Positions 5,541-23,088 of a stretch of 49,765 bases of DNA are shown here, piece after piece. Under the pieces are notes generated by a model, which did not search any database, had not been told where the DNA came from, and was given only the letters and a program-made list of their open reading frames with translations. Numbering within the stretch: position 1 is the stretch's first letter; the number at the start of each line of letters is the position of its first letter. Source of the DNA: Thioalkalivibrio halophilus (lineage in GTDB: Bacteria; Pseudomonadota; Gammaproteobacteria; Ectothiorhodospirales; Ectothiorhodospiraceae); the NCBI RefSeq assembly GCF_001995255.1, contig NZ_MUZR01000018.1, forward strand, positions 1-49,765. Direction: 5' to 3'. The translations under genes and the position numbers were made by a program.

Positions 5541-6350
5541 ATGAAAGTACTCTATCTCGTGGGCATGGGCCGCAGCGGTTCGACCCTGCTGGACATCCTG
5601 CTGGACGCGCACAGCCAGGTGCGCGCGCTGGGCGGGGTCCGGCGCCTGGCGCATTACGCGCGCAAGCATCCCTGCCCCTGCGGCGCGCCCAGCTTCTGGG
5701 CCTGCGACTTCTGGTCGGCGGTCAACGCCCGGCTGGAGGAGCGCCTGGGCTGCAACCTGGAGACCCTGGACGTGCATGCGCGCGACCCGGCCCGTTTCAA
5801 CGAGCACAACCGCACGTTGTTCGAGGTGGTCTCCGAGGTCAGCGGGGTCCCGTTCGTGACCGACAATTCCAAGTCGGTGCAGCGCCTGCGCCGGCTGATG
5901 GCCGCCCCGGACATCGAAGTGGTGCCCATCCACGTGCTGCGCGACCCGCGCGGGCGGGCGCAGTCGCTGCGCAAGCGCAAGCAGCAGAACTACCTCCCCA
6001 CCTTCTCCTATTCCCATCGCTCGCTGCGGCTGTACCACCTGCTGCGCAACGAGCCGCACATCGTGGTGAACTACGAGAAGCTGGCCTACGACCCCGAGGA
6101 CCAGCTGCCGAAGCTGATGGAGCGTCTGGGGCTGGAGTTCGAGCGCCCGCAGCTCGACTCCTGGGCGGAGATGGCGCATCACAACATCGGCTCGGCGGAT
6201 GTCTTCCGCAAGACCGAGGGGAGCGTGATCTGGCCGGACGATGCCTGGAAGCAGGTGATCCCGCCGTACATGCAGCGCATCCAGAACGTGATCGCCTGGC
6301 CCGGACGGGTCGCCAACGACGCCAAGGAGCGTCGCTGGGGTCTGGACTGA
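5541..6350 (+). CDS. Sulfotransferase family protein (ST-A)
   Basis: This 269-residue protein is a P-loop-like sulfotransferase that probably moves sulfate from PAPS to a carbohydrate hydroxyl. GRSGSTLLD at residues 10-18 is the 5'-phosphosulfate-binding loop. VTDNSKSVQRL and VLRDPRGRAQSL, near residues 110-140, correspond to the 3'-phosphate-binding region. A Cys-rich stretch (KHPCPCGAPSFWAC) near residues 48-61 is unusual and may bind a metal or form disulfides. It follows hldE by 25 bases on the same strand and meets the double-kinase gene tail to tail. It is the only + strand member of the eight sulfotransferases. Family confidence is high; the acceptor is unknown, with an LPS or capsule sugar inferred from context. 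Confidence 0.85.
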   Translation: MKVLYLVGMGRSGSTLLDILLDAHSQVRALGGVRRLAHYARKHPCPCGAPSFWACDFWSAVNARLEERLGCNLETLDVHARDPARFNEHNRTLFEVVSEVSGVPFVTDNSKSVQRLRRLMAAPDIEVVPIHVLRDPRGRAQSLRKRKQQNYLPTFSYSHRSLRLYHLLRNEPHIVVNYEKLAYDPEDQLPKLMERLGLEFERPQLDSWAEMAHHNIGSADVFRKTEGSVIWPDDAWKQVIPPYMQRIQNVIAWPGRVANDAKERRWGLD

Positions 6351-6371
6351 CGCACCCGCGTCCGCAGCCGG

Positions 6372-7655
6372 TCAGCGCGCCTCGCCGACCCGCAGCAGCC
6401 ACTCCCGGTCGTGCTGCGCGGCACGCAGAAAGCCGCGCGCCCTCGGCCGGGCAAAGGCCAGCGGCAGCGGATCGAGGATCCACAGGTTCCGGCCGTCGCT
6501 GCCCAGCATGCGCGGATCCCGCCCGCGGAACCGGATCCCGTAGTCCCGCAGACCCGCCCACAGCGTCTCGGCCGCTTCCGGACCGGGCGGAGGGCCGCCG
6601 TCCGTCAGCGGGTGCATGTCCGGGATCGCCTCCTGGACCAGCCAGATCATGCCGCAATCCGCAGCGACCACCGCCACCGGCCGCGGCACCGCCAACCCCA
6701 GCCGCCGGAGGGTGAGCGCATGGCTCCAGACCCGACGCGCGACCCGGCGGGTGAGGGCCGGGCGCAGCAGGGCAGGCAGGGTCTGCCAGGGGGCGTCGAT
6801 GCGTCGGGCCCGCAGCTCGTTGTTCGCCGGGGTCTCGGGTAGCTCGCCGGCCGCGTACAGCTGGCGGGCGATCTCGCCGGCCTGCTCACGGGTGATGCTG
6901 CGCCGGTCGTGGATGATCCCGAGGTCGTCGCTGCGAAAGCGCGGATAGTGTTTCCAGCCCCGTGCCGCGCGGTGCGCAACCCGGCGGGCGTGGCGGACGC
7001 GGGCGTGGCGCAGTGCCCGCAGGAAACGCTCCAGCTCGGCCTCGCTCGCGTCCCAGCCGCGCAGCTCGTGGTAGCGCCGGAAGCCCTCGCGGATGCGCGC
7101 CTCGGGCACGCGGGTCTTGGACGCGTACAGCCGCTGCAGGTGGCGCAGGGCGGCTCGCCGTCCGAGGGCGGCTCCACGCTGGCGTACCCGGTCCCCGTCG
7201 ATCGCGTACAGCTTTCCGTCGCGGGGGATGAAGTTCAGCCAGTTGAGATCGTTCTGCACGACGCCGGCGCGGTGGTGTTCGGCCAGGGTGGTCAGCAGCC
7301 GGGCATGGGCCTCGTGCCCGGGATCGCCGCCGGGCGGTGGCCAGGGGGTATCCGCCTCGACCAGGTCCAGCACCAGCAGCCACGCGCGGTATTGCGGGCA
7401 GTAGCCGGCGTGGTGCAGCGCCGGCGCCGGCACGCCGGCCGCCTCCAGTCGGCGTGCCCCGCGGGCGCCACGGCGCCATTCGGCCCACTGCGCGATGCGC
7501 CCGAGATAGAACTTGGCGACCACCACACGGCCGTCCGCCAGCCGGGCGCGAAAGATCCGCCGCTTGCCCGGGTACTCGTGGAGGCAGTCCTCCAGCGCGA
7601 GGGGGCCGAGCCCGGCGACTTCCGGGCGGTCACCCGTTTGCGGCGTTGGGGCCAT
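6372..7655 (-). CDS. Lipopolysaccharide-kinase-like protein with two kinase-like halves
   Basis: A 427-residue protein of the InaA/Kdo-kinase-like small-kinase superfamily, probably phosphorylating a glycan or lipid. The N-terminal half has VVVAKFYLG (K48 as candidate ATP lysine), a catalytic-loop equivalent QNDLNWLN (D136, N141; Gln replaces the usual His) and IDGD (D153) as metal-binding motif. The second half, from about residue 240, looks like another kinase C-lobe: a LGLAVPRPVAVV hinge, WLVQEAIPD, then a degraded loop RDPRMLGSDGRNLWILDPLP. This suggests one active and one decayed domain. Its start overlaps the end of the sulfotransferase gene before it by 26 bases, so they are translationally coupled. 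The substrate cannot be read from sequence. Confidence 0.75.
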   Translation of the reverse strand: MAPTPQTGDRPEVAGLGPLALEDCLHEYPGKRRIFRARLADGRVVVAKFYLGRIAQWAEWRRGARGARRLEAAGVPAPALHHAGYCPQYRAWLLVLDLVEADTPWPPPGGDPGHEAHARLLTTLAEHHRAGVVQNDLNWLNFIPRDGKLYAIDGDRVRQRGAALGRRAALRHLQRLYASKTRVPEARIREGFRRYHELRGWDASEAELERFLRALRHARVRHARRVAHRAARGWKHYPRFRSDDLGIIHDRRSITREQAGEIARQLYAAGELPETPANNELRARRIDAPWQTLPALLRPALTRRVARRVWSHALTLRRLGLAVPRPVAVVAADCGMIWLVQEAIPDMHPLTDGGPPPGPEAAETLWAGLRDYGIRFRGRDPRMLGSDGRNLWILDPLPLAFARPRARGFLRAAQHDREWLLRVGEAR

Positions 7656-8343
7656 CGAATTCGTAGCCCAGCAGGTCCAGGTCGCGGCGGTAATGCTGCG
7701 CCACCATCTCCGCCAGGGTGTCGTCGTAGTAGCTGCGGTAGTCGTCGCGTTCGCTGGCGCGGCGCAGATGCGGAAGCTCGGGCGTCGGGATCCCGATGCG
7801 CTGACAGATCGTGGCGAAATCCTCGTGCAGGTTCTCGTAGCGGCCGATGAAATCCACGATCACCCGCCCCTGCAGATCCACGATGTATTCGTGCTGCAGC
7901 TCCGCCGAGGTGTCCAGCATGTAGTCGTACGGCCGTTCGGGGTCGAATTTCAGCCGCAGGAAATCGCCGAAGGTGCTTGTGCCCTCCAGTACTTGGGGCT
8001 TCTCCCGCTGGATGTGGTGCCAGGAGCTCACCTGCAGATCCCAGGGATTGCGCACGATCGCGCACTTGAACAGCTCGCGGTAGACCGGCTCCGGCAGCAT
8101 CTCCTTCGCCGCGATCGCCTTCGCGTGCCGCGGAAACTTCAGCCCCAGCTTGTGCCGCGGCCGGGTCAGCTGACTGACCTGGCTGGCCGCCCACAGCGGA
8201 ATGCTGTACCAGCCGCCCCAGCGATACGGCCGCAGCGCCGCCCGGATGCTGGTCCCGCCCGTCTTGGCGATGTGCACGAACAGGAAATTCTTGCGATAGG
8301 AAATCAGCATAAATCGGGGTTCGGCTGCGAACGGTCGCGGCAT
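7630..8343 (-). CDS. Sulfotransferase family protein (ST-B)
   Basis: A 237-residue member of the carbohydrate sulfotransferase group (Sulfotransfer_2 type). The N-terminus has the strand and PAPS loop FLFVHIAKTGGTSI (K27-S32). CAIVRNPWDLQVSSW is the 3'-phosphate-binding segment with its Arg-Asn-Pro-Trp-Asp core. YIVDLQGRVIVDFIGRYENLHEDF is a typical late motif of this group. The start may be the ATG at 8343 or an in-frame ATG at 8310 that begins directly before the conserved strand; neither has a clear ribosome-binding site. It sits between the NGNHR protein and the double-kinase gene in a tight minus-strand operon. The acceptor is unknown. Confidence 0.85.
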   Translation of the reverse strand: MPRPFAAEPRFMLISYRKNFLFVHIAKTGGTSIRAALRPYRWGGWYSIPLWAASQVSQLTRPRHKLGLKFPRHAKAIAAKEMLPEPVYRELFKCAIVRNPWDLQVSSWHHIQREKPQVLEGTSTFGDFLRLKFDPERPYDYMLDTSAELQHEYIVDLQGRVIVDFIGRYENLHEDFATICQRIGIPTPELPHLRRASERDDYRSYYDDTLAEMVAQHYRRDLDLLGYEFDGPNAANG

Positions 8344-8359
8344 TGTAACCGCGGGCGCT

Positions 8360-8962
8360 TCAGGAGTCCGCGGGGTTGCGCCGCGCGTTCAGTGAGCGCA
8401 GGGCATGGAGTACGGCCTCGTCGGCGTCCCGCCGCGAGGACTGGCGGCGCAGCCAGTCGCGGTGCACGAACTGGATCTCTCCGACGACCTGCGATACCCC
8501 GGCCAGACGGGCCACCGCCAGCCGATGGTTGCCGTTCGCCACCTTGATGAATTCGCCCTCCGGGCCGATGGCCACGCCGATCTCGTCCTTGCCCAGACCG
8601 GCGACGTATCCGTTCTCCGCCATGTTGCGGGCGAGGCCACGGTACCGCTCGAGGTACTTGTCCAGTGAGCGCGCGATCTTCTCTTCGGCCTGGTCCTCGG
8701 TTTTTCCACGGGCCCGATAGTAGCGATGCAGCGCCTCGATGTGTTCGGAGCGGCTGCGTTCTTCGTCCAGTAGATGTTCCAGCAGGGCGTAGATCGGGTG
8801 CAGGTCGAAGGGTTCGGTCCGCCGGTGCCACTGCCCGCGACGCACGCGGCGGGGCAGGAACAGCCCGTCCAGGAAAAACCGGGCCTTGGATGCCGGATCG
8901 CGCTTGGCGAGGTAGCGCCGGAGTTCCCGGGTGGGCAGGTCGACGAGGACGGGCGGTTTCAT
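8360..8962 (-). CDS. Hypothetical protein with ParB-like NGNHR motif
   Basis: This 200-residue protein is mostly helical and charged. The recognisable part is FIKVANGNHRLAVARLAGV near residues 140-160. It resembles the (D/N)GNHR phosphate-binding motif of the ParB/sulfiredoxin fold, known to bind nucleotides (CTP in ParB, ATP in sulfiredoxin). No helix-turn-helix DNA-binding region is evident, so a chromosome-partition role is unlikely. The ATG overlaps the stop of the upstream GT4 gene by four bases (ATGA), so the two are translationally coupled. That suggests a part in glycan modification or in nucleotide-dependent control of it, which is inference. The long upstream extension of this frame overlaps the GT4 gene and is not real. 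Confidence 0.65.
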   Translation of the reverse strand: MKPPVLVDLPTRELRRYLAKRDPASKARFFLDGLFLPRRVRRGQWHRRTEPFDLHPIYALLEHLLDEERSRSEHIEALHRYYRARGKTEDQAEEKIARSLDKYLERYRGLARNMAENGYVAGLGKDEIGVAIGPEGEFIKVANGNHRLAVARLAGVSQVVGEIQFVHRDWLRRQSSRRDADEAVLHALRSLNARRNPADS

Positions 8963-10101
8963 GGGGTGTGTGTTTCCGGATTGGTCGTTGGCGCGATGCC
9001 CAGCGCCTCCAGATAGGCGCGGGCGCTCGTTTCGACGGTGTAGTTGGCGACGGCCTGTTGCAGCAGCCCCGGTTCGATGGGTGCCTCCAGCCCGCGGGCC
9101 ATCCCTTCGGCCAGCGCGGAGGTATCGCCCATCGGGACGAGCGGGCCGAGGCGGCCCCCGGCGAGGATGTCGCGCGGACCGCTCGGGCAGTCGGTGGCCA
9201 CCACCGGTGTCCCGAGCGCCATGGCTTCGACCAGGACATTGGGCGATCCCTCGAAGCGGGATGACAGCACGAACAGGCTGGCAGCGCGCATCAGCGGATA
9301 CGGATTGGAGCGGAAGCCCGCCAGATCCACATGGTCGGCGATGCCCAGTTCGCGCGTCAGGCCCTGCAGGCGGTCCCGCTCCGGTCCTTCCCCCAGGATG
9401 ATGAGCCGGCAGGGTCGCCGGGCATGCAGCAGCGCGAAGGCCCGCAGGAGGGTAGCGAAATCCTTTTGCGGCCGCAGTCGGCCCACCGCCAGGATCACCG
9501 GTGTTTCGCTCCGTGTGCCCGCTTCCAGCCATGGATGCTCCGCGGCTTCTTCAGCCCTGGCAATCAGGGATGGCGAGATCACCGGGTTGGCGATGACGCG
9601 GAAACGTTTCGACGGGATGCCCCCGATGCGGGCGAGGTCGTCGGCTACCGGCTGCGCCACGGCAACGATGGCATCCGCCAGCGGGTACAGTCGCCGGACG
9701 GGGCGGTAACGCAGCCATCGCTGCAGGGCGGTCTTGTCGGCCAGCGAGCCGCTGAGGTGCATCCCCATCCGCAGAACGATCCGCGTCGGGACCCGTGCCA
9801 GCCGGCGCGCTCGCAGGGCCACGCGGCCGGCGCGATCCTTGGCCGCCAGCAAGGCGTCGGGACTCTGGCGACGCAGGTAGCGGGTGACCGCGGGCAGCGC
9901 CAGCAGGGAGGTGCGCGCATCCAGCCGGATCACATTGACCTCTGCCGGGATATCTTCGACATGGCCGCCACGGGCCTTCAGCAGTAGCAGATCCACCTGC
10001 ACGCCGGCATCCACGAACCCGCGCAGCAGATGGTTCATCATCTTTTCGACGCCGCCATCCCCGGTGTAGGAAACGAGTACGGCCAGCCGCGGGGTTGTCA
10101 T
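8959..10101 (-). CDS. GT4-family glycosyltransferase (GT4-a)
   Basis: A 380-residue GT-B retaining glycosyltransferase of family 4. The N-terminal acceptor domain starts MTTPRLAVLVSYTGDGGVEK, with the Gly-Gly-rich loop. The donor domain shows ILAVGRLRPQKDFATLLRAF, RLIILGEGPERD, and the E-x7-E-type segment FEGSPNVLVEAMALGTPVV, followed by ATDCPSGPRDIL. It is closely related to the GT4 proteins at 16094-17272 and 19833-20978, so these look like a duplicated set. The ATG at 10101 forms an ATGA overlap with the kdkA stop, which fixes the start; the longer upstream frame is antisense-free but runs through kdkA. It probably adds a hexose or similar sugar to the LPS core or glycan at the inner membrane. 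Confidence 0.9.
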   Translation of the reverse strand: MTTPRLAVLVSYTGDGGVEKMMNHLLRGFVDAGVQVDLLLLKARGGHVEDIPAEVNVIRLDARTSLLALPAVTRYLRRQSPDALLAAKDRAGRVALRARRLARVPTRIVLRMGMHLSGSLADKTALQRWLRYRPVRRLYPLADAIVAVAQPVADDLARIGGIPSKRFRVIANPVISPSLIARAEEAAEHPWLEAGTRSETPVILAVGRLRPQKDFATLLRAFALLHARRPCRLIILGEGPERDRLQGLTRELGIADHVDLAGFRSNPYPLMRAASLFVLSSRFEGSPNVLVEAMALGTPVVATDCPSGPRDILAGGRLGPLVPMGDTSALAEGMARGLEAPIEPGLLQQAVANYTVETSARAYLEALGIAPTTNPETHTP

Positions 10102-10850
10102 GCCGGTTTCCGTTCCTCGTTGTAGGCCTGAAGCAGGTGCGGCCATCCGAGGGCGCCGCGTTCGCGGGTCGCCGGCCATTTGTCCAGCGAACGCCGCAGA
10201 CGCGACAGGTTGTCCTGAAGCCCCCGATAGTAGCCGATCCGGCCCCGGTCCCAGTCGATCAGCCAGACCTGCCCGTTGCCCTGGATCAGGATGTTGCGGG
10301 CGTTGAGATCCGCATGCCAGGCGCCATGGGCGTGGAACCGGGCGATCACGCGCCCGACCGCATCCCACAGTTCGGGCGTGTCCTTTCCGTCCCCGATCCA
10401 TTCGTCCAGCGGGTGGCTGTCCGGGATGCGTTCGCTCAGCAGATCGCCACGATACACCGGCCCGTGGCGGCAGACCCGTGCGGCCCCCGGACGCGGGACC
10501 GGCAGCCCCAGTTCGTGCAGTCGCGCCATCAGGCGCCACTCGCGCACAGGACGGCTGCGTTCCAGCCCGGTCCACAGGTAGGTATCCGTGGCAACCCGGG
10601 CCATCAGTCCGCCCCGCCAGTAATGGCGCAGGACCCAGTCGCGCCCCTCGTGACGCAGGAAGTGGGTCGCACGCCGACCGCTGCTGCTGCCGGTCCACTG
10701 ACCTCGTGCCCGCAATGACTCGGGGTCGAACAGGTCGTTATTGCACTCCCGGAGCATTCCGGGGTCGGACAGGATACGGCACTGTCGCCTCCGCGGATGG
10801 GAGCGCCAGTGTTCAAGTGCGGGCTCGTCGACCTGTCGTGGATTGTCCAT
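10098..10850 (-). CDS. kdkA: 3-deoxy-D-manno-octulosonic acid (Kdo) kinase
   Basis: KdkA phosphorylates Kdo linked to lipid A, giving a Kdo-4-phosphate inner core. Family features are THFLRHEGRDWVLRHYWRGG (an N-lobe with the nucleotide-binding region), ELGLPVPRPGAARV, DLLSERIPDSHPL, the catalytic loop HADLNARNILI, and the metal-binding LIDWDRG. The chosen ATG at 10850 gives 250 residues, close to the usual KdkA length; an ATG 60 bases upstream adds a non-conserved stretch. It overlaps the following GT4 gene by ATGA. In organisms with KdkA, phosphorylation usually accompanies a single Kdo residue, but the WaaA sequence here does not reveal how many Kdo units it adds. The identification is strong from the motif set. 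Confidence 0.88.
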   Translation of the reverse strand: MDNPRQVDEPALEHWRSHPRRRQCRILSDPGMLRECNNDLFDPESLRARGQWTGSSSGRRATHFLRHEGRDWVLRHYWRGGLMARVATDTYLWTGLERSRPVREWRLMARLHELGLPVPRPGAARVCRHGPVYRGDLLSERIPDSHPLDEWIGDGKDTPELWDAVGRVIARFHAHGAWHADLNARNILIQGNGQVWLIDWDRGRIGYYRGLQDNLSRLRRSLDKWPATRERGALGWPHLLQAYNEERKPA

Positions 10851-10946
10851 GAGGATCACTGGTATTCCAGCCGGGGAATGGCAGGATGAGGGTCCATGTT
10901 CCGCTGGCACTCGTCACCGAGGCTCTCTTGAGAGACACACGACGTT

Positions 10947-11903
10947 TCAGTGGCGTCGCACGCGATGGGTGAGACCGGTCATCCAGAGCGAAAAAGCCTC
11001 TTTCCAGTGGCCCGCTCGCGCTCGCCCACGGGCTGCGCGGGAGCAGAGCCTCGGGCGTATCAGCCCGCACCGGACAGCGTGATGAGCCATCACCTCGGCT
11101 TCGCGGTCGTTATCCCGTTCAAGAATCTCGGACAACATGGCATAGGGTTTCGGCTGGTCCGGCTCGTGCTGGATCGCGCAGCGCAGATGCTCCCGGGCTT
11201 CCCTAACCCTTCCGACATTCAGGAGGTTGGTAGCCAGGAAATACCGGGCATCAGATTTGTATGGGCAAGCCTCCACCCACTCGCGGCTTGTCTTCATATC
11301 CTCGGGGGACGGGCGTCCCGAAAGCCGGGGGAGGGGTATCGGATCGTGTCCCAGAAATGCGCAGATTTGTTCCCCGGCGTTGCCGTCTGCGATGTCCACA
11401 GTACAGAGCCGATCTGCCTCGCCCAGATGTTTCTCAAAATACTCCCGTACCTGATGCGTGTGTTGTTCGTGGATTTCTGCAAGCCTTCCCTTCGGAATCT
11501 CAGGCAATCGCTGGATGTTTGCATCCACGTAGAGACGGTACTGAATCCGGTTGTAGGGTGACAGTTTCCGGTCCTTCATATGTCCGCGGGCGCTACGTTC
11601 CCAGTGGTCAGGGTCGCGATGGACAAGTATGAAGCGACTATCTGGCCAGCGCTCGGCGAGCTGCGGGTAAAGGCCCGGAAACGGGACGTCGCTGAAGGCG
11701 TCACGCGACTCAATGAGTGGGGTCAGCCGTTGTAGTACCCGTTCAGGGTTATCCTCCAGCCCACGTACTGCCTCCATCAGATTCTCGCCATTGAAGAATT
11801 TGGGGAAATGGAGTGTGGTGTACCCCAGGCTGGACAGAAGGATGTCCGTGCTGCGAGTCATCGTGCGGTGCAGGGAGATCACAAAAATCTTGCTTTTCGT
11901 CAC
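10947..11903 (-). CDS. Sulfotransferase-like protein with C-terminal TPR-type repeats (ST-C)
   Basis: The N-terminal two thirds resemble the Sulfotransfer_4 group: FVISLHRTMTRSTDILLSSL is the candidate PAPS loop, and FILVHRDPDHWERSARG the later phosphate-binding strand. From about residue 205 the sequence changes to helix pairs, including YFLATNLLNVGRVREAREHL and PKPYAMLSEILERDNDREAE, with TPR spacing, suggesting a protein-interaction or acceptor-holding module. I chose GTG at 11903 (318 residues): GAGGAG lies five bases before it and it forms a GTGA overlap with the upstream stop. GTG at 11909 is the alternative. The PAPS loop lacks the usual Lys/Arg-x-Gly-[Ser/Thr] arrangement, so activity is less certain than for its neighbours. 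Base composition is lower in GC than in the flanks. Confidence 0.72.
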   Translation of the reverse strand: MTKSKIFVISLHRTMTRSTDILLSSLGYTTLHFPKFFNGENLMEAVRGLEDNPERVLQRLTPLIESRDAFSDVPFPGLYPQLAERWPDSRFILVHRDPDHWERSARGHMKDRKLSPYNRIQYRLYVDANIQRLPEIPKGRLAEIHEQHTHQVREYFEKHLGEADRLCTVDIADGNAGEQICAFLGHDPIPLPRLSGRPSPEDMKTSREWVEACPYKSDARYFLATNLLNVGRVREAREHLRCAIQHEPDQPKPYAMLSEILERDNDREAEVMAHHAVRCGLIRPRLCSRAARGRARAGHWKEAFSLWMTGLTHRVRRH

Positions 11904-12655
11904 GGGCACTCCTCGAACTCGAAACCCAGCAACTGGATCTCCCTTGCGAAGAAGACCTCGACAATCCTTCGCGTCTCGTCATCATAAAGGCTTACCACAT
12001 CCCGGGCTTTGCGATACCCCCCCTTGGCAGAAAGGCCCCGCAGAGTTTCACCTACATCCTCCGGTAGTCCAAGCTCACGGGACACGTCGCCCAGCTCTTC
12101 GTTCAGCCGGTCATAGCGGATCAATCGATCTACGCCAAGGATGCCGTTGACGGTGTAGCAGTCGAAATTGCTCTTCAGTCCGTTCCCGGACAGAATGAAG
12201 TCCCGGAATGAAAGCCCCGTCTTCCGCTTCTTGGGATCCCAGAAGTACCGAGACACCATTTTATCCCAAGGGTTTCTTTCAATGGAAAATTTGTAGTACG
12301 AGTTCCAGATTTCTTCGCCCACGCGCTCACGTATCGCCCTGGCGGGCATGTGATCCCAGTAGCGCTTGGGGGCGCGGGTTGTCGCTCGCAGGGCCTTTTC
12401 CGGGTTGCCTGATCGAGTGCCGACAGATGAACGAAGCCAGCGTGGCCATTGTCGGGGCGTCAGGGTGCGCAATGCCTGTTCGAAGTTCTGTGCTGTAGGA
12501 TAGCCGCGTTGGTAGCGTTCCTTCTCATCACCCCAGGTAAGTGGAGTGATGATGTCTTCGGGGCCCATGAACCTTGAAAGGGCCATTTCCACCGATGTCC
12601 CGCCGACCTTTCCGGTCTTGATGAAGATAAACTTGTATTCATGAGAGATCAGCAT
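11900..12655 (-). CDS. Sulfotransferase family protein (ST-D)
   Basis: A 251-residue carbohydrate-type sulfotransferase. It starts MLISHEYKFIFIKTGKVGGT, where the last residues form the PAPS loop, and carries FSIERNPWDKMVSRYFW as the 3'-phosphate segment. The ending KGGYRKARDV then FFAREIQLLGFEFEE is shared in outline with ST-E and ST-H, with which it forms a paralogous trio. The start was placed at the internal ATG (12655) because all three align from an M/V-x-x-x-H-x-x-x-F-I-F-I-K-T beginning; the 21 residues upstream are not conserved. The gene is AT-rich for this window: 23 of 60 bases are G or C in 12241-12300 by hand count. Recent acquisition is likely. Confidence 0.85.
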   Translation of the reverse strand: MLISHEYKFIFIKTGKVGGTSVEMALSRFMGPEDIITPLTWGDEKERYQRGYPTAQNFEQALRTLTPRQWPRWLRSSVGTRSGNPEKALRATTRAPKRYWDHMPARAIRERVGEEIWNSYYKFSIERNPWDKMVSRYFWDPKKRKTGLSFRDFILSGNGLKSNFDCYTVNGILGVDRLIRYDRLNEELGDVSRELGLPEDVGETLRGLSAKGGYRKARDVVSLYDDETRRIVEVFFAREIQLLGFEFEECP

Positions 12656-12656
12656 G

Positions 12657-12899
12657 TCAATAGCCCGTCTCGGAAAGATCGGTCTCAAGCGATTGGGGCA
12701 ACTTTGTATTGCCGCCATGAACCGTTTCGTTTGCTCGTGCCCACAAATCCAGAATCGGGAATTCGGTTAGCCGCTCCCGGTATTTCTGTTTCCTATGCAG
12801 CTCCATCGGCAGTCCATGCGTTTTGTCCGCAGTTGGATGTGATTCAGTCCCTGGTATCCCGACGTGGATGAGGAGCTCATTCACCGGAGCGCTCTTCAT
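12657..12899 (-). CDS. Small hypothetical ORF, possible sulfotransferase remnant
   Basis: This 80-codon frame fills the gap between the GT2 gene and ST-D. It overlaps the GT2 end by 23 bases and stops two bases before the ST-D ATG, the tight packing seen across this operon. After a short leader it reads NELLIHVGIPGT, which resembles the first strand and loop of PAPS-dependent sulfotransferases, but the K-[TS]-G-[TS] core is missing and nothing later matches the family. It may be the decayed N-terminus of a ninth sulfotransferase, a small orphan protein, or chance. I see no known domain. A frame starting at 12880 with an ATGA overlap is the competing start and gives an unrelated sequence. Confidence 0.35.
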   Translation of the reverse strand: MKSAPVNELLIHVGIPGTESHPTADKTHGLPMELHRKQKYRERLTEFPILDLWARANETVHGGNTKLPQSLETDLSETGY

Positions 12900-13809
12900 G
12901 GCTGCGGCCCTTGTTCCTTGCGCGAGCGGCCTCCTTCTTTTTCTTGTGTTTCAGACGTCGATGAATGAAGCGAATGGATTTCGTCGCATCTTCGAAGAGC
13001 CATTGTTGGTCTTCCTTCATGCCGGTCGGCCGGAGCACCTCCTGGGCAAGCGGCAATCTGCTCAGGTCGCGTTCGTAAAGCCACTTCACTTCGGACGGGG
13101 TCATGGGTTCGTACGGATAGAATCCGACTTCCCGATACCATTCGGCGAAGCGGTGAAGGAGGCTCTTGCGCCGGAATTTTGAACTCTCGGCATTGGGGAG
13201 CCACATCATGAATGGATACGGTGTAAACCCCATTCTGACGCCGAGTTCGCGAGCCTGCTGGTTGTTTTCGCCTTCGGTGGGCATGAAGCCCCAGTCGGCT
13301 TCACGCAGGCGAGCCGTGTGAAACAGCCCGGTGGCAGCAAAATGGGCGCGGCGGCTGACTGAGTCATCGCGGAAATAAACTGGCACTTCCGGGTCGATGT
13401 GGAAGTTGAGCGAACCGGGGCGCCGGTTGGCCTTGAGGAATGTGGTGGCAAGTTCCACGGCTTCCGGATGGACTGCGAAAAAGCGCTTCCAGTGTTGCTC
13501 GTCCCGTTCGTCCAGATCCCGCACGATCTGCTGGTCGTCCTGGATGAACAGGGCCAGGTCGTCACCGTCGCGATCATCCAGGGCCTGCTGCATGTTGGCG
13601 TAGAGACCGCCCAGATATGCGGTGCTTGCGCGATCGTTGCGTATGACACGGATCCTCTCGCCGAACGCTTCCAGCGCGGTGTCCACTGCGGGGTCGGTGC
13701 TGCCGTCATCCATCACCGTAACGGGATACTGGGGTGCATGCCGAAACAGCGAGTCGAGGCAATTGTGCAGGTAACGGCCCCGGTTGTAGGAAAAGACGAC
13801 AATCCGCAC
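12877..13809 (-). CDS. GT2-family glycosyltransferase with basic C-terminal tail
   Basis: A 310-residue GT-A fold glycosyltransferase. VRIVVFSYNRGRYLHNCLDS opens the nucleotide-binding strand. VTVMDDGSTDP carries the first Asp motif, and LALFIQDDQQIVRDLD holds the Asp-rich metal-binding region near residue 95. ESSKFRRKSLLHR and PYEPMTPSEVKW follow. GTG at 13809 is the likely start: it sits two bases after the upstream TAA and begins exactly at the conserved strand; upstream residues are antisense to nothing conserved and run into the ligase gene. The last 25 residues are very basic (KHKKKKEAARARNKGR) and could anchor the protein to the inner membrane. Donor and acceptor are unknown; surface-glycan assembly is inferred from context. 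Confidence 0.85.
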   Translation of the reverse strand: MRIVVFSYNRGRYLHNCLDSLFRHAPQYPVTVMDDGSTDPAVDTALEAFGERIRVIRNDRASTAYLGGLYANMQQALDDRDGDDLALFIQDDQQIVRDLDERDEQHWKRFFAVHPEAVELATTFLKANRRPGSLNFHIDPEVPVYFRDDSVSRRAHFAATGLFHTARLREADWGFMPTEGENNQQARELGVRMGFTPYPFMMWLPNAESSKFRRKSLLHRFAEWYREVGFYPYEPMTPSEVKWLYERDLSRLPLAQEVLRPTGMKEDQQWLFEDATKSIRFIHRRLKHKKKKEAARARNKGRSHEERSGE

Positions 13810-13811
13810 GG

Positions 13812-15221
13812 TTAGCTCGGTTCGTTGGATTGAGTGGGGCGGGTAGCTGGGCGGATGGGGTCCCATCCGAGTTTTCGGGCGAATGCGGCGGCCCACATTA
13901 CCCCGAACATTATCCCATACAGGTGTTCAACCCGGAAACGATTGAGATTTGCACTGGCCAGTGATGCGACCAGGAACGTTATCAGGAACGCAGCTGCCGC
14001 AAGTGCGAGGAAGCGCGCTGCATTGTTTCGTCTCAGCTGAATCCGTATTTCATTCATGGAGAGCAGGATTGTCATGATGATGAATGCGTATCCGATGCTT
14101 CCAAACCGGAGCATTATCTCAAGGTGGCCGTTATGGAAATGCCCCTGTCGGCCTTCAAGGACCTCGGGAAGATCAGGGTCCTCGAATCGGAGATATCGCG
14201 GATCAGCTGGCCCGTATCCCATCATCGGGCGTTCCATGAGATATCCGAACCCTGTCACTAGATAAGCGGCCCGGATGGCCTGCCCGTCCGAGGGCAGCTC
14301 TTCGATCCAGTTGCTCGGTGGCGTGGTGATCATAGCCCGGAGAAATTCACCCTGGTCGCCCGCGGCCCACCGGTCCTGAATATTGTCCCATGATGCGGCG
14401 AGTACCCCTGCCGCCGTCATTAGGCCGAGCAGAATGGTGACGCCGACCGTGCGAGAATGTTTCGCCGAGAGTTCCCGGCGGCCGAACCAGAGCATGGCCG
14501 GCACCAGGAATACGAGACCGATCAGAGTCGCAAGCCAGATGGTTCGGGCCTGAAATACGACGATGCCGACCAACGCCACGGTCGTTGCGCAGACCCAGAG
14601 GGTGATGCGCCATACCAGTCCCCACCCCCGTGTCTGCCCCAGCAGGGCGGGTGCCAGGGCGAGAGCCGCTAGAACCAGGGTCGCGAGTTTGAGGCCATCG
14701 ATCCAGGGGTTGACACCCTCCATGTAGCGATGTCCTTCGAAAATGGCGGCATGCAGCTCCGATAAGGAAAAGCCGCTGGCCAGCATCAGCAGGAAGCCCA
14801 GCGCCCAGGTGACCACGACCCCGAGCGAATGACGGATCCAGTTGCCGCTCGCTGCCAGCATCAGGCCCACCAGCAGGATGGGGAGTGGCCCGGTTCGGAC
14901 CCAGTCACCGGTTCCCTCCCATTGTTCGGCAGCCATGTCGGGGCGTTCTAAAAGCGCCGCTGCTGCCCCCCGCCCTATGACGTAGAGGATGAACCCCACC
15001 GTTACCCAAAGCATCGGGGAACTGCGCAGAGCCGCCCAGTGCTGGATGACGATAATGATGGCCAGCACCAGCATGATTGCCTGGAACAGCTGGCCCAGCG
15101 ATATGCTGATGGACCCGAAGAAGGCGAAGCCGTATGCCGAGCCAATGGCCCAGTGCCTGAGTGGCCCGAGGCCTTGTTTGCCCTCGGTGCCGGGCTCAGC
15201 GGTTGATTCCATCATGATCAT
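13812..15221 (-). CDS. O-antigen ligase-like polytopic membrane protein
   Basis: A 469-residue protein with about ten to twelve hydrophobic segments, among them LFQAIMLVLAIIIVI, GPLPILLVGLMLAAS, ALGFLLMLASG, LATLVLAALALAPALL and ALAAAAFLITFLVASLA. It fits the O-antigen ligase/polymerase (Wzy_C, RfaL-like) superfamily. VVFQARTIWLATLIG matches the Arg-containing motif before the large periplasmic loop. GHFHNGHLEIMLRFG gives the conserved H-N-x-x-L and closely following residues. It would join an undecaprenyl-linked glycan to the lipid A core, or polymerise repeat units, on the periplasmic face. WaaL versus Wzy cannot be told from sequence alone. Next upstream is ST-E (8-base gap); next downstream is the GT2 gene (2-base gap). 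Confidence 0.82.
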   Translation of the reverse strand: MIMMESTAEPGTEGKQGLGPLRHWAIGSAYGFAFFGSISISLGQLFQAIMLVLAIIIVIQHWAALRSSPMLWVTVGFILYVIGRGAAAALLERPDMAAEQWEGTGDWVRTGPLPILLVGLMLAASGNWIRHSLGVVVTWALGFLLMLASGFSLSELHAAIFEGHRYMEGVNPWIDGLKLATLVLAALALAPALLGQTRGWGLVWRITLWVCATTVALVGIVVFQARTIWLATLIGLVFLVPAMLWFGRRELSAKHSRTVGVTILLGLMTAAGVLAASWDNIQDRWAAGDQGEFLRAMITTPPSNWIEELPSDGQAIRAAYLVTGFGYLMERPMMGYGPADPRYLRFEDPDLPEVLEGRQGHFHNGHLEIMLRFGSIGYAFIIMTILLSMNEIRIQLRRNNAARFLALAAAAFLITFLVASLASANLNRFRVEHLYGIMFGVMWAAAFARKLGWDPIRPATRPTQSNEPS

Positions 15222-15229
15222 CGCGGCGC

Positions 15230-15958
15230 TTAAAATTGATATCCGAAGGCTCGGATCTCGGGTTCGCAGACCCGTTCGATCAGGGTCCTGTCTGATTGGC
15301 CGAGTACATCCCGGTATGAGCGCGTGTCCTTCCGGAATCCGCCTTTGGCTTTTTGTTCAGGTAGTTGTAATTGCGTCGCGTCGACCCGGAGCGTTTGCGC
15401 GAGTTCCGCCAGATCCGACTCGAGCCGTTCGTAAAGAAGAACCCGGTCGACGAGGAGGTCATCGTCGATGGCGTAGTGTGCCCAGTTGGAGATCCACTGA
15501 GGCTTGTTTTTCTCCATCCAGACCAGGTACTCGGACACGCTGGGGAAATCCGTCTGCCCCTGTTCTTCGCGTCGGCCCTTCATCCACCAGTACCGCGACA
15601 GGGCACGGTCCCATGGGTTACGCTCGACCGTGACCTTGAGATAGCTGTCCCATACATGGCGAGGAAGCAGCGCGCGAAGAGTTCGTGCAGTAGTGTGCTG
15701 CCTCCAGCGTGCGCGTTGTCCCTGCGTCAGCAGCCGGCGCCACTCCCGGAACCCGCGGTGTGCACGAACGGGCTTCCGGTCACCGGTGGGGCCATAGCCG
15801 CCCTCTTCCTGTCGGAGTCTTTCTTCGCCCCGCTCCGAGCTCAGGCGCGTGACGATGTCTCCGGGGCCGCACAGGCGGGAGAGCGCGATCTCGATGCTGC
15901 TGCCGGCGGTTTTGCGGGTCTTGATGAAGATGAAGCGGTGCCGGTGGCAAACGATCAT
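15230..15958 (-). CDS. Sulfotransferase family protein (ST-E)
   Basis: A 242-residue protein, closest in the window to ST-H. MIVCHRHRFIFIKTRKTAGS forms the first strand and PAPS loop. VERNPWDRALSRYWW is the 3'-phosphate site, and SNWAHYAIDDDLLVDRVLLYE and PEQKAKGGFR are shared later blocks. The ATG at 15958 is chosen because it opens the shared N-terminus; the 32 upstream residues of the open frame are not conserved. It is the first gene of the minus-strand run that continues to 6372 and faces the GT4-b gene across a divergent spacer, so its promoter should lie in 15959-16093. The conserved Lys-Thr-Ala-Gly-Ser-Ser loop suggests an active enzyme. The acceptor is unknown. Confidence 0.87.
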   Translation of the reverse strand: MIVCHRHRFIFIKTRKTAGSSIEIALSRLCGPGDIVTRLSSERGEERLRQEEGGYGPTGDRKPVRAHRGFREWRRLLTQGQRARWRQHTTARTLRALLPRHVWDSYLKVTVERNPWDRALSRYWWMKGRREEQGQTDFPSVSEYLVWMEKNKPQWISNWAHYAIDDDLLVDRVLLYERLESDLAELAQTLRVDATQLQLPEQKAKGGFRKDTRSYRDVLGQSDRTLIERVCEPEIRAFGYQF

Positions 15959-16093
15959 CCGGCGGGGCCCCCGGTGTTTGGCGAGAATATCGGTCTTATT
16001 ACACCACAAACCGAGCAGGGCCGACCAGGTGAGCGGCTCACTTGAGCCTGACACGGTTAAGCCGGGTGTGGAATTTCGCAGGATGTATCATAT
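15959..16093. promoter_or_regulatory. Divergent spacer between ST-E and GT4-b
   Basis: This 135-base spacer separates two outward-facing glycan genes and is AT-richer than most of the window, with ATATCGGTCTTATTACACC on the left and TGTATCATATGTGTACAC on the right, so promoters for both directions are expected. I could not fit a -35/-10 pair with good spacing in either direction, so no exact promoter is claimed. GTGTACAC is an 8-base palindrome at the right end, just inside the longest GT4-b frame. Confidence 0.35.
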
Positions 16094-17272
16094 GTGTACA
16101 CGAGATCGAGTATGGTGCGTGCGCGCCTTCATTCCGGCCGGTTAACGGGGGCGACAGCATTGAACTCGCAATTGGTGATTTTTGCACCCTTCAAGGCCTG
16201 GGGCGGGATCGAGCGCAAGATGCTGATCCTGAGTCGGGAGTTCCTGCAACTGGACATCCGGCCCCGGCTTGTGCTGACCCGCGGCGGACAGGTGCCCTAC
16301 CCGGAGGAACTCCCGGCGGCCGTGGAGGTAGTGGATCTTCAGAGCAGGGGTAAATTCGACAGCCTGTTCAAGCTGCGGCGTCTGCTGCGGCAGGATCCGC
16401 CCGGGGCCGTGCTGACCGCCAAGGACCATTCGGCCAAGGTGGCGGTGCTGGGGCGCATGCTGGGGTGGGTGCCGTCGCCGGTGTTCGTGAAGGTGACCAA
16501 TACTCCGAGCCAGACGTTGCGCCGCCCATTTAAGCGCCGTTCGGCGCGCTGGCTGTACCGGCATGCCGACCGGGTCATCGCGATCTCCGAAGGCGTCCGG
16601 GATGACCTGGTCGAGCATTTTGACGTGGATCCCGAACGGATCGAGGTGATCTACAACCCGACCGTAACCCCGGACATCCCCGAGCGCGTGAAGGCGCCGG
16701 TGGATCATCCCTGGTTCGCCGGTGACGGACCGCCGGTCATTGTCGGGGCCGGTCGTCTGACACCGCAGAAGGACTTTGCCACGCTGCTGGAGGCCTTCGC
16801 CCGGGTGCACGAACGGCGTGCGGTGCGGCTGGTGATCCTGGGCGAGGGCCCCCTGCGTGAAGCCCTGCTGGAGCAGGCACGGCGGCTGGGGGTGGCGGAG
16901 GCCGTTGACCTTCCCGGCTATGTCCCGGACCCGTTGCCCTATTTCGCCCGGGCCGGGGTCTTCTGCCTTTCTTCGCGTTATGAAGGGCTGGGTAACGTCC
17001 TGATCGAGGCGCTGGCGGCCGGAGCGCCGGCGGTGGCCACCGACTGTCCTTCCGGCCCGGCCGAGATCCTTCAGCACGGTCGGATCGGTCCGCTCGTGCC
17101 GGTGGGGGACGCGAATGCCCTGGCCGGGGCCCTGGAGGCGACGCTGGAAAACCCGCCCGGGGAGGAGCGGATCCGCGAAGGCCTGGATCGCTTCCGCAGC
17201 GACCGTGTCGCCCTTCGGTATGCGCAGGTCATGGGGCTGGTGAAGGCAGAGTCGACTGCGGCCCGTTCGTGA
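16094..17272 (+). CDS. GT4-family glycosyltransferase (GT4-b)
   Basis: A GT-B retaining glycosyltransferase. The N-terminal domain begins LVIFAPFKAWGGIERKM with the Gly-Gly-Ile loop. The donor domain shows IVGAGRLTPQKDFATLLEAF, RLVILGEGPLRE, SSRYEGLGNVLIEALAAG and ATDCPSGPAEIL, close to GT4-a and GT4-c. The ATG at 16094 gives 392 residues, but the first 22 are not conserved. A TTG at 16160, preceded by GGGGGC, begins right at the conserved strand and may be the true start. It is the only + strand gene in a 17-kb minus-strand stretch, which suggests a separate insertion or inversion. It ends 17 bases from the end of ST-F, tail to tail, with no clear terminator. The sugar donor is unknown. Confidence 0.88.
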   Translation: MYTRSSMVRARLHSGRLTGATALNSQLVIFAPFKAWGGIERKMLILSREFLQLDIRPRLVLTRGGQVPYPEELPAAVEVVDLQSRGKFDSLFKLRRLLRQDPPGAVLTAKDHSAKVAVLGRMLGWVPSPVFVKVTNTPSQTLRRPFKRRSARWLYRHADRVIAISEGVRDDLVEHFDVDPERIEVIYNPTVTPDIPERVKAPVDHPWFAGDGPPVIVGAGRLTPQKDFATLLEAFARVHERRAVRLVILGEGPLREALLEQARRLGVAEAVDLPGYVPDPLPYFARAGVFCLSSRYEGLGNVLIEALAAGAPAVATDCPSGPAEILQHGRIGPLVPVGDANALAGALEATLENPPGEERIREGLDRFRSDRVALRYAQVMGLVKAESTAARS

Positions 17273-17289
17273 GGCGCGGCCGGCTGCCG

Positions 17290-18195
17290 TTATCCGGTTC
17301 TGTCGGAGACATACTCGGCAGGCGGGACATAACCGAGCCGGGCGAGCCGGTCGGATACGTTGGTGGCAAAGGCGCGCAGCTCTTCATCCTGCTGCCAGGC
17401 GTGGGCCCGGTCGGGACGAAAAGCCGCGGCCGCTGCGGCCACCCGTTCGGCATCGGGGGGGCAGCCGCAGAACTCCAGGGCCTGCGGCAGCAGTCGCGCC
17501 GGATCTCTCAGCAGGTCCTCGTAGGCGATCTCCATCGCATTGGGGCCCAGGGCCCGGACATGCTCCCGGGCCCGCTGCAGGTAGCTTTCCCACAGGGAGA
17601 AGCCGCCTTCCAGCGTGCGGCACCGTACCTGTGGAGCGAAGCCGCGCCGCGCCGGGGCGCCGGGGTGGTTGCGATACCAGCCCCGCAGGGATCGATAGCG
17701 GCGCACGCGCCGGTCGAACACCCCGCGGCGGCGGGCGCGCAGGCTTGCCGCCACATCCACGCCGTGCCGCGTGATGTGCAGCACGCGGGCCTGCGGAAAG
17801 AGCTCCAGCCACAGCGGCAGGGTGTAGGTGTTGCGCGGGTCCTTCCAGCCCCAGGGCCGGTTCTGTCCGGGCATGCCGCCGCCGCGCAGACCGCGGCGGA
17901 ACCCGAGGAAGCGCAGACTGGCGGGCCCGCGCACGACCCCTTCCATGTAGTCCAGCAGCCACGGCCTGAGTGTTTCGTCCTCCAGTAGCCAGTCGAACGA
18001 CTCCGGGCGGTCCCAGGTCGCGGAGGCCTCGCGGAAGAGCCAGGCGTTGATCGCGTTGGTGAAGGCCGCCTCTTCGTTGCGGCTGGCACCGACCCCCATG
18101 AAGAATCCGGCTTGTTGCAGCACCCGGGTCAGCAGGCTGGTGCCCGAGCGGTGCATGCCGATGATGATGACGGGGGGGGTCGCACGGGTGGTCAT
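17290..18195 (-). CDS. Sulfotransferase family protein (ST-F)
   Basis: A 301-residue P-loop-like sulfotransferase. PVIIIGMHRSGTSLLTRVL at residues 8-26 is a classical PAPS-binding start. WGWKDPRNTYTLPLWLELFP then VLHITRHGVDVAASLRAR supplies the 3'-phosphate-binding Arg and Ser region. Its type (GMHRSGTS with WKDPR) differs from the trio ST-D/E/H, so it probably has a different acceptor. The ATG overlaps the ST-G stop by four bases (ATGA), linking F and G translationally. It is the last gene of the minus-strand operon that begins upstream with the acyltransferase and GT9 genes, and ends 17 bases from GT4-b. The acceptor is unknown. Confidence 0.86.
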   Translation of the reverse strand: MTTRATPPVIIIGMHRSGTSLLTRVLQQAGFFMGVGASRNEEAAFTNAINAWLFREASATWDRPESFDWLLEDETLRPWLLDYMEGVVRGPASLRFLGFRRGLRGGGMPGQNRPWGWKDPRNTYTLPLWLELFPQARVLHITRHGVDVAASLRARRRGVFDRRVRRYRSLRGWYRNHPGAPARRGFAPQVRCRTLEGGFSLWESYLQRAREHVRALGPNAMEIAYEDLLRDPARLLPQALEFCGCPPDAERVAAAAAAFRPDRAHAWQQDEELRAFATNVSDRLARLGYVPPAEYVSDRTG

Positions 18196-19031
18196 GATGC
18201 AGCGCTGTAATAGCGGTAGCCCGCGTACCAGGGGTCCAGGCGCTCGTTGATGATGGCCTCGACGTATTCGAGGCTCTCGCCGTCGAGGTATTCGCGGTAG
18301 CCGCCGACTTCGCCCTTGCGGGTCTTGTAGCTTTCGGTGTCGTCGGCGTCGCGGGCGGCCAGCGAACTGCTCCCCATCGCGTTGCGGGATTCCAGCTGGC
18401 GCATGTTGTCGAAGCGGCCGAAGTCTACCGCGGCCCGGAGTGTTTCCGTGGATACGTCCTGCATGCCGATGAATTCGAGCACCCGCCGGAGCTGGCCAGC
18501 GGTGTCGGCGTGCAGGTCTTCATAGCGCAGCAGCAGGAAATCGCCCGGCACGTCACGGTTGCGCGCCCAGATGTTGTAGAAATCGACCAATGTCTCGATC
18601 CCGCCGCGCCGCTCCCTGACATAGTCTTCCATTCGGCCCTGGTAGTTCGCGTTGCGGCGGGTCTTCTGGAAATAGGACGAAACAAGGACATCCCGGGGGT
18701 CGCGGACCATAAAGACGACCTTGCGCCCCGCATAGTCACTCTTGTCCTGCTCCAGCTCCTCCGGGAGCAGAAACTCCGGACCGCCGTCGTGGTGCTGCAG
18801 GATGTAGGGGATGTCGCGCCAGGGGCGGGCATAGCCCCGCAGGCGCAGCGGCTTGCGCAGACGGATGCCGTAATGCAACTCGAGGGACTTGCTGAGGAGC
18901 ACGACCAGCCAGGTCCTCCCGCATTTGGGGTAGGAGATCAGGTGGACGTCCGCACGCCGGCGCCGCCAGCGACGCCGGATATGCTGGATGCCGCGGCGCA
19001 GCGGGCCGCGATTGCGGGAAATGGCCGCCAT
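18192..19031 (-). CDS. Sulfotransferase domain protein (ST-G)
   Basis: A 279-residue member of the Sulfotransfer_1 group. After a basic leader, VHLISYPKCGRTWLVVLL (near residues 29-46) is the PAPS loop of the Y-P-K-[CS]-G-x-T-W type seen in cytosolic-like sulfotransferases. VVFMVRDPRDVLVSSYF gives the 3'-phosphate-binding Arg and Ser. LLLRYEDLHADTAGQLRRVL and the late KTRKGEVGGYREYLD complete the family pattern, the latter corresponding to the RKGxxGDW-like dimer/PAPS segment. It starts two bases before the ST-H stop codon region ends, and overlaps ST-F by ATGA. This subfamily often acts on small molecules or lipids as well as sugars, so its acceptor may differ from that of its neighbours. 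Confidence 0.87.
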   Translation of the reverse strand: MAAISRNRGPLRRGIQHIRRRWRRRRADVHLISYPKCGRTWLVVLLSKSLELHYGIRLRKPLRLRGYARPWRDIPYILQHHDGGPEFLLPEELEQDKSDYAGRKVVFMVRDPRDVLVSSYFQKTRRNANYQGRMEDYVRERRGGIETLVDFYNIWARNRDVPGDFLLLRYEDLHADTAGQLRRVLEFIGMQDVSTETLRAAVDFGRFDNMRQLESRNAMGSSSLAARDADDTESYKTRKGEVGGYREYLDGESLEYVEAIINERLDPWYAGYRYYSAAS

Positions 19032-19033
19032 GT

Positions 19034-19768
19034 TCAGCCGTCCTCGAAACGGTAGCCGAAGGCGTCGATCTCGCGCCGGCAGACGCGGTCGATGATCGCC
19101 CGGTCGTTATCGGTCAGGATCTCGCGGTAGTCTTGCCGCCCCTGGCGAAAGCCGCTCTTGGCCCGCTGCTCGGGCAGCCGGATGTCGGTGCCGAGGCCCA
19201 GTTCCTGCTGCAGTTCCGTAAGTTCGTCATTCAGTTTTTCGTAGCGCAGAACCCGGTCCACGGCGATCTCGTCATCGATGGTGTAGTGATCCCAGTTGCT
19301 GAGCCAGTGCGGCTTGTGTTCCTCCAGCCAGGCGAGGTATTCGCTCAGGCTCGGGAAGTTATCGCGCCCCTTCTCTTCCCAGCGGTGTTTCTGCCACCAG
19401 TAGCGCGACAGGGCCCGGTCCCAGGGGTTGCGCTCGATGGTGAAGCGGAAATAGGAGTGCCAGATTCCGGGTCCGATAAAGGAACGGATCTGTGGCGCGC
19501 GAGCATGTTGTGGGTACTCGGTGCGCCGTCCCCGGAAGAGCAGCCGTCGCCATTCCTTCCATCCTCGGTGTTCGAGGGGGCGCTTGTGGCAATTAGTGGG
19601 GCCCTGACCGCCTTCGGCCCGGCGCAGCTCTTCCTCGCCGCGATTGGCGCTCAAAGGGGTGATGATGTCCTCGGGCCCGCAGGCGCGCGAAAGCCCGACT
19701 TCCAGGCTGGAGCCGGCGGTCTTGCGTGTCTTGATGAAGATGAAGCGATTGCGGTGCGAGATGATCAC
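19034..19768 (-). CDS. Sulfotransferase family protein (ST-H)
   Basis: A 244-residue paralogue of ST-E and ST-D. It carries VIISHRNRFIFIKTRKTAGS at the N-terminus, TIERNPWDRALSRYWWQKHR at the 3'-phosphate site, SNWDHYTIDDEIAVDRVLRYE, and PEQRAKSGFRQGRQDYREIL. GTG at 19768 is proposed as start: it encodes the first residue of the conserved beginning and AGG lies about ten bases upstream. The 46 residues above it in the open frame are low-complexity and unlike ST-E or ST-D. It follows GT4-c by 64 bases and is followed two bases later by ST-G. Similarity to ST-E across the full length points to duplication within the locus. Confidence 0.86.
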   Translation of the reverse strand: MIISHRNRFIFIKTRKTAGSSLEVGLSRACGPEDIITPLSANRGEEELRRAEGGQGPTNCHKRPLEHRGWKEWRRLLFRGRRTEYPQHARAPQIRSFIGPGIWHSYFRFTIERNPWDRALSRYWWQKHRWEEKGRDNFPSLSEYLAWLEEHKPHWLSNWDHYTIDDEIAVDRVLRYEKLNDELTELQQELGLGTDIRLPEQRAKSGFRQGRQDYREILTDNDRAIIDRVCRREIDAFGYRFEDG

Positions 19769-23086: not shown

Positions 23087-23088
23087 CG

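Follow-up and report, generated by a model that had tools for sequence, protein, structure and literature searches.

Eight sulfotransferase genes in a lipopolysaccharide-core locus of Thioalkalivibrio halophilus: a probable accessory island for a hypersulfated outer core

Analysis of a stretch of 49,765 nucleotides from Thioalkalivibrio halophilus (contig NZ_MUZR01000018.1; hereafter the window) indicated that eight sulfotransferase genes, here termed A to H, lie at positions 5541-19768, flanked by hldE on one side and by a block of GT9, lipid A acyltransferase and MsbA-like genes on the other. All eight were found at the places and on the strands given in a preliminary description of the sequence, and hidden Markov model searches of each protein returned four Pfam sulfotransferase families. 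These were Sulfotransfer_1 for G (18192..19031, minus strand; PF00685, 3.8e-26), Sulfotransfer_3 for A (5541..6350, plus; PF13469, 2.4e-13) and F (17290..18195, minus; PF13469, 1.1e-21), Sulfotransfer_4 for C (10947..11909, minus; PF17784, 1.6e-22), whose C-terminal part gave weak TPR matches in Pfam, and Sulfotransfer_2 (PF03567) for B (7630..8310, minus; 6.8e-11), E (15230..15958, minus; 2e-6), H (19034..19768, minus; 6.3e-5, 23.7 bits against a cut-off of 22) and, distantly, D (11900..12655, minus; 2.1e-4). At 21.9 bits D fell 0.1 bit short of the cut-off that the other seven passed; sequence comparison showed D to be homologous to E and H, which share 58% identity. Starts at 8310 (B), 12655 (D), 15958 (E) and 19768 (H) were judged likely. 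The Stf0 profile matched none of the eight (Pfam, E up to 0.1), and NCBIfam gave no specific name for any. By family, the eight are sulfotransferases of the type that uses 3'-phosphoadenosine 5'-phosphosulfate (PAPS). When the whole genome (2.87 Mb, E 1e-3) was searched with the four families, seven of the island enzymes (not D) and one other site were recovered. Eight of the nine sulfotransferases detected thus lie inside 14 kb, which is not chance. The ninth is on another contig (L034, G000:C2:62882-63652, Sulfotransfer_3, 2.8e-15; G000 denotes the genome of the window).

The PAPS-loop types quoted in the preliminary description were present. Two motifs, which we take by name and role to be the 5'-phosphosulfate-binding (5'-PSB) loop and the 3'-phosphate-binding (3'-PB) motif, were identified in all eight proteins. 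The 5'-PSB loops read MGRSGST, AKTGGTS, HRTMTRS (an unusual form, in C), GKVGGTS (in D), RKTAGSS (twice), MHRSGTS and PKCGRTW. The 3'-PB motif is Arg-x7-Ser, with the Arg and Ser invariant across all aligned rows (2 for D, 3 each for C and E, 11-13 for A, F, G and H, and 91 for B), some of which are duplicate copies of one genome stretch (L022/L039, L025/L043) and hence not all independent. The AlphaFold model of H (pLDDT 88.7), whose input alignment included D and E, matched best 5t03, a heparan-sulfate 6-O-sulfotransferase with adenosine 3',5'-bisphosphate (PAP) (Z 9.7, rmsd 4.4, 182 aligned), and that of B (pLDDT 84.8) matched best 9f6z, NDST1 (Z 9.9, rmsd 5.1, 188 aligned), and also the heparan-sulfate 6-O-sulfotransferase. 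For each model all 50 listed PDB entries were sulfotransferases with heparan-sulfate enzymes on top (6-O, 3-O and 2-O enzymes for H). A PDB sequence search with B, C and G matched G to SULT enzymes and gave weak matches for B and C.

The weak scores of E and H, the sub-threshold score of D, the odd loop of C and the possible redundancy of E and H could mean that real sulfation is confined to one or two positions, a number of the enzymes being relics or having another chemistry. Both PAPS motifs are intact throughout, however, the H model matches glycan sulfotransferases with bound PAP, and dN/dS against a close congener (G012, hldE 97% identical) is 0.05-0.21 for all eight by simple Nei-Gojobori counts made with our own script, indicating purifying selection; we therefore consider relics quite improbable.

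Examination of the neighbouring genes confirmed that GT4, GT2, KdkA-like and O-antigen-ligase-like genes are interleaved with the sulfotransferases, as had been described, each by Pfam match. Gene order in the window is glnE, ilvE, hldE, the island, GT9, lipid A acyltransferase, SIS, HAD, Kdo (3-deoxy-D-manno-octulosonic acid) transferase and MsbA-type ABC transporter. The borders are hldE (heptose kinase/adenylyltransferase, 4091..5515, plus) and a GT9 heptosyltransferase-family gene (20971..22065, minus). Between them lie kinX, a Kdo/WaaP-like lipopolysaccharide (LPS) kinase gene with a weak match (6372..7655, minus; 20.8 bits against a cut-off of 21.3), GT4 genes a (8959..10101, minus), b (16094..17272, plus) and c (19833..20978, minus), a Kdo/WaaP-family (KdkA-like) LPS kinase gene (10098..10910, minus; PF06293, 2.4e-42), a GT2 gene (12877..13896, minus; PF00535, 8e-10) and a gene for an O-antigen-ligase-like membrane protein (Wzy_C; 13812..15221, minus; PF04932, 1.2e-12). 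The eight sulfotransferases outnumber the neighbouring glycosyltransferases (three GT4, one GT2, one GT9). Past the island (22055..28003) follow lipid A acyltransferase (minus), SIS/GmhA-like (plus), HAD/GmhB-like (plus), Kdo-transferase/WaaA-like (plus) and MsbA-type transporter (minus) genes, where GmhA, GmhB and MsbA are names that we presume. By its Pfam content the set of hldE, GT9, Kdo transferase, LPS kinase, lipid A acyltransferase and MsbA-type transporter is complete, and on these gene assignments the locus is an LPS-core locus. No repeat-unit flippase, ABC-2 or other polymer exporter was found among the scanned open reading frames of 5541-25900, some small ones being outside the scan, save the Wzy_C protein. 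Two further frames were noted. A 200-aa protein encoded between GT4a and B (8360..8962, minus), for which no family was found, is present in part of the congeners, with 82-88% identity beside B in G005 and G012, and carries a 'NGNHRLAVARLAG' stretch in which we presume a ParB-like resemblance. The frame adjoining the MsbA-like gene (28437-28883, plus) matched an AbiEi antitoxin domain below threshold (20.5 bits against a cut-off of 25).

Comparison of 30 Thioalkalivibrio genomes, G000 included, indicated that the island is accessory. The locus carries all eight sulfotransferases in G012, eight in G005 (Thioalkalivibrio sp. ALJ3), eight in G020 (T. thiocyanoxidans ARh2), seven in G024 (ALJ7), four in G025 and three in G018, and in these six genomes, as in G000, the sulfotransferase genes are mixed with those of glycosyltransferases and LPS kinases over the interval from hldE to GT9. 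The hldE-GT9 spacing is 15.5 kb in the window versus 0.8-2.8 kb in G029, G015, G009, G011, G001 and G028, whose short loci contain a kinase and zero sulfotransferases, their GT9 and kinase being 45-57% identical to those of the window. Five sulfotransferases (A, B, F, G and H) are recurrent, A being missing in G024 and G018 and H in G025, and three (C, D and E) are variable and lie in a low-GC segment: GC is 0.589 in 10947-16093 (C, D, GT2, Wzy_C, E) against 0.67-0.69 on either side. Close orthologues of C, D and E were found in G012 only; C was further matched at 30% in G007, a metagenome-assembled genome (MAG), and at 52% in Halorhodospira neutriphila, and the middle of the island is occupied by different Sulfotransfer_2 genes in G005, G020 and G024. 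In the accompanying hldE search, full HldE (at least 70% identity) was found in 15 of the 30 genomes, the rest, several of them near-complete, having partial HldE or none, a hint that half of the genus may make LPS cores without heptose.

The preliminary description had pointed to cysDNC as the possible source of PAPS. PAPS is not supplied in that way: the sole adenosine 5'-phosphosulfate (APS) kinase match in the genome forms the C-terminal end of a PUA_2/ATP-sulfurylase/APS_kinase fusion of 571 aa (Sat-APS kinase; G000:C36:1481-3193), around which lie genes for Wzz, an epimerase and a UDP-sugar dehydrogenase (ugd). The distance between this dehydrogenase gene and the fusion is likewise no more than 15 kb in G005, G025 and G001, though not in G012. 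PAPS reductase (PF01507) gave no match in the genome at E 1e-3, whereas all 14 control genomes matched; among the 29 congeners G019 matched clearly (1.8e-36) and G001 and G029 weakly. Since no reductase was matched, sulfation is most likely the sole use of PAPS in this genome.

Seven of the 30 genomes have the fusion (G000, G001, G005, G012, G021, G024 and G025). Among the 23 that are at least 90% complete it was found in 5/6 island genomes (at least three sulfotransferases) versus 2/17 others (p 0.0034; counts tallied by hand, with a Fisher test that ignores shared ancestry). The sixth island genome, G020, is collinear with G001 until its contig ends in a repeat-rich stretch, roughly 200 bp short of where the fusion should begin, so that its apparent lack of the gene may be explained in part by the contig end. 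In G029 and G004, which have zero sulfotransferase matches, scraps of the fusion persist near ugd (its final 28 or its initial 36 residues), which looks like loss. Many interspersed repeats, often of 70-160 bp, were also seen between ugd and the PAPS synthase (L132, L036, L040 and L042) and coincide with the G020 contig end; translated repeats in L033 resemble 'PIGRRAGLL'.

Relatives of B, a widespread family, were analysed in the best 79 loci of 266 stretches. They showed 56-92% identity and belonged by record title to several phyla (68 Pseudomonadota, 5 Thermodesulfobacteriota, 4 Myxococcota, 1 Verrucomicrobiota and 1 unassigned); ilvE or glnE was present in the stretch at 26 of the 79. Among the 45 loci with at least 20 kb of sequence, 31 had one sulfotransferase, 6 had two and 8 had three to five, as counted with profiles seeded by the eight, which other sulfotransferases may escape and with which end fragments in short loci (L049) may count double. 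At least three were found in 14 of the 79 loci, namely in four Thioalkalivibrio, Halorhodospira neutriphila, Alkalilimnicola ehrlichii, Ectothiorhodospira haloalkaliphila, Desulfurivibrio sp. AMeS2 and six MAGs; one of the MAGs is an Aquisalimonas, and two bear the tag CSSed, which in PMC6146748 denotes a Cock Soda Lake sediment. The Desulfurivibrio locus reads B, GT4, H, G, Wzy_C, F, GT4; its G is 71-72% identical and groups with Thioalkalivibrio and Halorhodospira G, apart from four other rows of the Ectothiorhodospiraceae or the genus (SH-aLRT 96, midpoint root, no bootstrap). APS kinase was matched in 10 of the 12 genomes reached through loci with at least two sulfotransferases, and in 8 of the 10 with at least three; one of the 12 genomes (that of L061) resembles relative G036. 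A universal GT4-B pair was rejected as a rule, since GT4 immediately precedes B, at no more than 400 bp, in only 29 of the 72 loci with enough sequence.

Alignment with G005 showed that A changes slowly (dN 0.041 at dS 0.65; 93-99% identity in G012, G005 and G025), as does B (dN 0.046 at dS 0.41), compared with hldE (dN 0.163 at dS 0.69) and ilvE (dN 0.096 at dS 0.60). By these counts A is under tighter constraint than its neighbours and B probably so. This bears on the reason for the island. It may be a surface-variation cassette kept under phage or predator pressure, in which sulfates mask receptors and their pattern outweighs their charge; the patchy occurrence inside one genus, the low-GC variable segment with its exchangeable enzymes, the near relatives in other phyla and the matches of B, D, E and H to the phage-encoded sulfotransferase family phrog_3347 are all in keeping with this. 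On the other hand, the A and B proteins change less than those of glnE, ilvE and hldE, unlike an arms-race part, and no B relative was confirmed in viral contigs in a scan limited to sites with two peptide patterns. We regard the cassette as a possible but not the favoured reason; it concerns the reason and not the chemistry, and is compatible with a hypersulfated core. A phage origin was rejected on the same pattern-limited viral scan, although phrog_3347 is a distant phage family.

Taken together, the several Pfam families, the PAPS sites, the LPS context, the PAPS synthase without a reductive outlet and the pattern of loss make dense sulfation of a lipid-A-linked glycan well supported. We propose, with a probability of about three in four, that the region is an accessory LPS outer-core island of about 15 kb encoding a hypersulfated lipid-A-linked oligosaccharide in Thioalkalivibrio. 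In this scheme the three GT4 and one GT2 enzymes would extend the heptose/Kdo inner core in the cytoplasm, and the eight PAPS-dependent carbohydrate sulfotransferases, each acting on one sugar or position, would sulfate it before or during export through the MsbA-like transporter; the Wzy_C protein may attach further glycan outside, and PAPS would be supplied by the Sat-APS kinase fusion of the wzz/ugd polysaccharide locus. From the genes we infer catalysis, the acceptor (the LPS core), a single position for each enzyme and the physiological role. The dense sulfation of core or O-antigen put forward in the preliminary description is thus upheld as predicted from gene content, with the core favoured and an O-antigen repeat less likely because no repeat-unit exporter was seen among the scanned cluster proteins; the several acceptor positions that it implied would fit the extent to which the eight have diverged, and the ties to salt, alkaline pH or phage defence that it raised are conjectural. 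Very heavy sulfation of the outer surface is probable.

A number of observations weigh against this proposal. Sulfate on a Thioalkalivibrio glycan was not found in the open literature. Fold evidence covers H and B, two of the eight enzymes, and Foldseek results for H were modest (best E 4.7e-4, TM 0.41-0.51 in the first five rows). The lower dS of B to G005 compared with its neighbours suggests that part of its likeness may stem from transfer. APS kinases overall track sulfotransferases weakly in the genus, as far as matches can tell: they were found in 12/17 genomes with any sulfotransferase against 1/6 without (two-sided p 0.052), and in 8/10 with at least two against 5/13 others (p 0.090, Fisher). 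The fusion occurs without the island in G001 and G021 (two and one sulfotransferases elsewhere), and G016 has APS kinase and zero sulfotransferase matches. Conversely, sulfotransferases without a strong APS kinase match were found in G017 (four, on separate contigs, 99% complete), in G014, G022 and G026 (one each), in G023 and in the MAGs G007, G013 and G018 (79, 67 and 66% complete), and 2 of the 10 outside genomes with at least three sulfotransferases had no APS kinase match. G007 has a minimal hldE locus, with its sulfotransferases on other contigs. Finally, the fusion sits by wzz/ugd, outside the sulfotransferase locus, and elsewhere again in G012; part of the sulfation may for this reason fall on another polysaccharide.

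That last observation could be carried further, such that the main substrate of the enzymes is an O-antigen repeat, or a separate capsule or exopolysaccharide produced by the wzz/ugd locus, the LPS locus being a mere location. The PAPS synthase inside a wzz/ugd/epimerase locus, the capsule or exopolysaccharide products of the multi-sulfotransferase clusters already known, the Wzy_C protein within the island and the G007 sulfotransferases outside the hldE-GT9 interval point this way, but the interleaving of the enzymes with glycosyltransferases and LPS kinases from hldE to GT9 in the seven genomes named above and the lack of a repeat-unit flippase or ABC-2 exporter among the scanned proteins make it unlikely.

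For the hypersulfated core, the role of charge has to be considered. Well-studied LPS cores are held together by divalent cations bridging phosphates, and Thioalkalivibrio is a soda-lake genus of sulfur oxidisers. Soda lakes are described as low in calcium and magnesium and as reaching up to pH 11 (PMC6146748), and expression of the Sinorhizobium LPS sulfotransferase is reported to drop with divalent cations (PMC12445080, citing Keating 2007); from these two points we suggest, by analogy, that sulfate charge may replace cation-bridged phosphate. A core with eight sulfotransferases would represent other chemistry for the same end, or another way of disguising the surface. An extended version, with sulfates about equal to sugars, a pH-independent charge balanced by monovalent ions and not by Ca/Mg-bridged phosphate, exchange of the island between phyla of haloalkaline habitats and PAPS synthesis kept in these sulfur oxidisers solely for it, is rather doubtful. 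Strict adaptation to soda lakes is weakened by the congeners without sulfotransferases: since several genomes of the genus have no island, it is dispensable for soda-lake life. Congeners whose corresponding site has the minimal locus are natural controls. Family B could become a genomic marker of LPS sulfation, and the enzymes are candidates for use in sulfating carbohydrates under salty and alkaline conditions.

Heparan sulfate is a single glycan modified by several sulfotransferases, each at one position, and HS6ST, HS3ST, HS2ST and NDST1 are the nearest solved folds of H and B; unlike the island enzymes these are animal proteins with a polymer substrate and no LPS, at 8-18% identity. A genomic account of a sulfated Cobetia capsule reportedly exists (PMC11766843). 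Searches of the open literature gave nothing on-topic joining Thioalkalivibrio and sulfotransferase, no direct match to a report of multiple sulfotransferases in a polysaccharide cluster, and none that joined sulfotransferase, Ectothiorhodospiraceae and lipopolysaccharide among the matches listed (the best 10 of 1,466 for pairs); for LPS sulfation by a sulfotransferase, Sinorhizobium was the match found. Its LpsS is a sulfotransferase that acts on LPS, as is predicted for the island enzymes, but is presented in PMC12445080 as a single enzyme of the Stf0 family. The sulfated capsule cluster of Vibrio sp. KMM 8419, as described in PMC11641403, likewise brings sulfotransferases and genes devoted to PAPS synthesis together within one surface-glycan cluster, but with three sulfotransferases, an ABC-exported capsule plus an O-antigen region, and cysNDC, against eight in an LPS-core locus here. 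The synechan (xss) cluster of Synechocystis 6803 (PMC8205485) resembles the island in its sulfotransferases of distinct subfamilies clustered with glycosyltransferases, but makes a Wzx/Wzy-type secreted polymer with two sulfotransferases to eight glycosyltransferases, against eight to three GT4, one GT2 and one GT9 here. According to the same account, sulfate per synechan repeat roughly tracks the number of sulfotransferases (sugar:sulfate 8:2), and this analogy, applied to the numbers here, predicts a core in which sulfate would exceed the transferred sugars. Clusters with two or three sulfotransferases and LPS sulfation by one enzyme are thus already known, and eight in an LPS-core locus differs from both.

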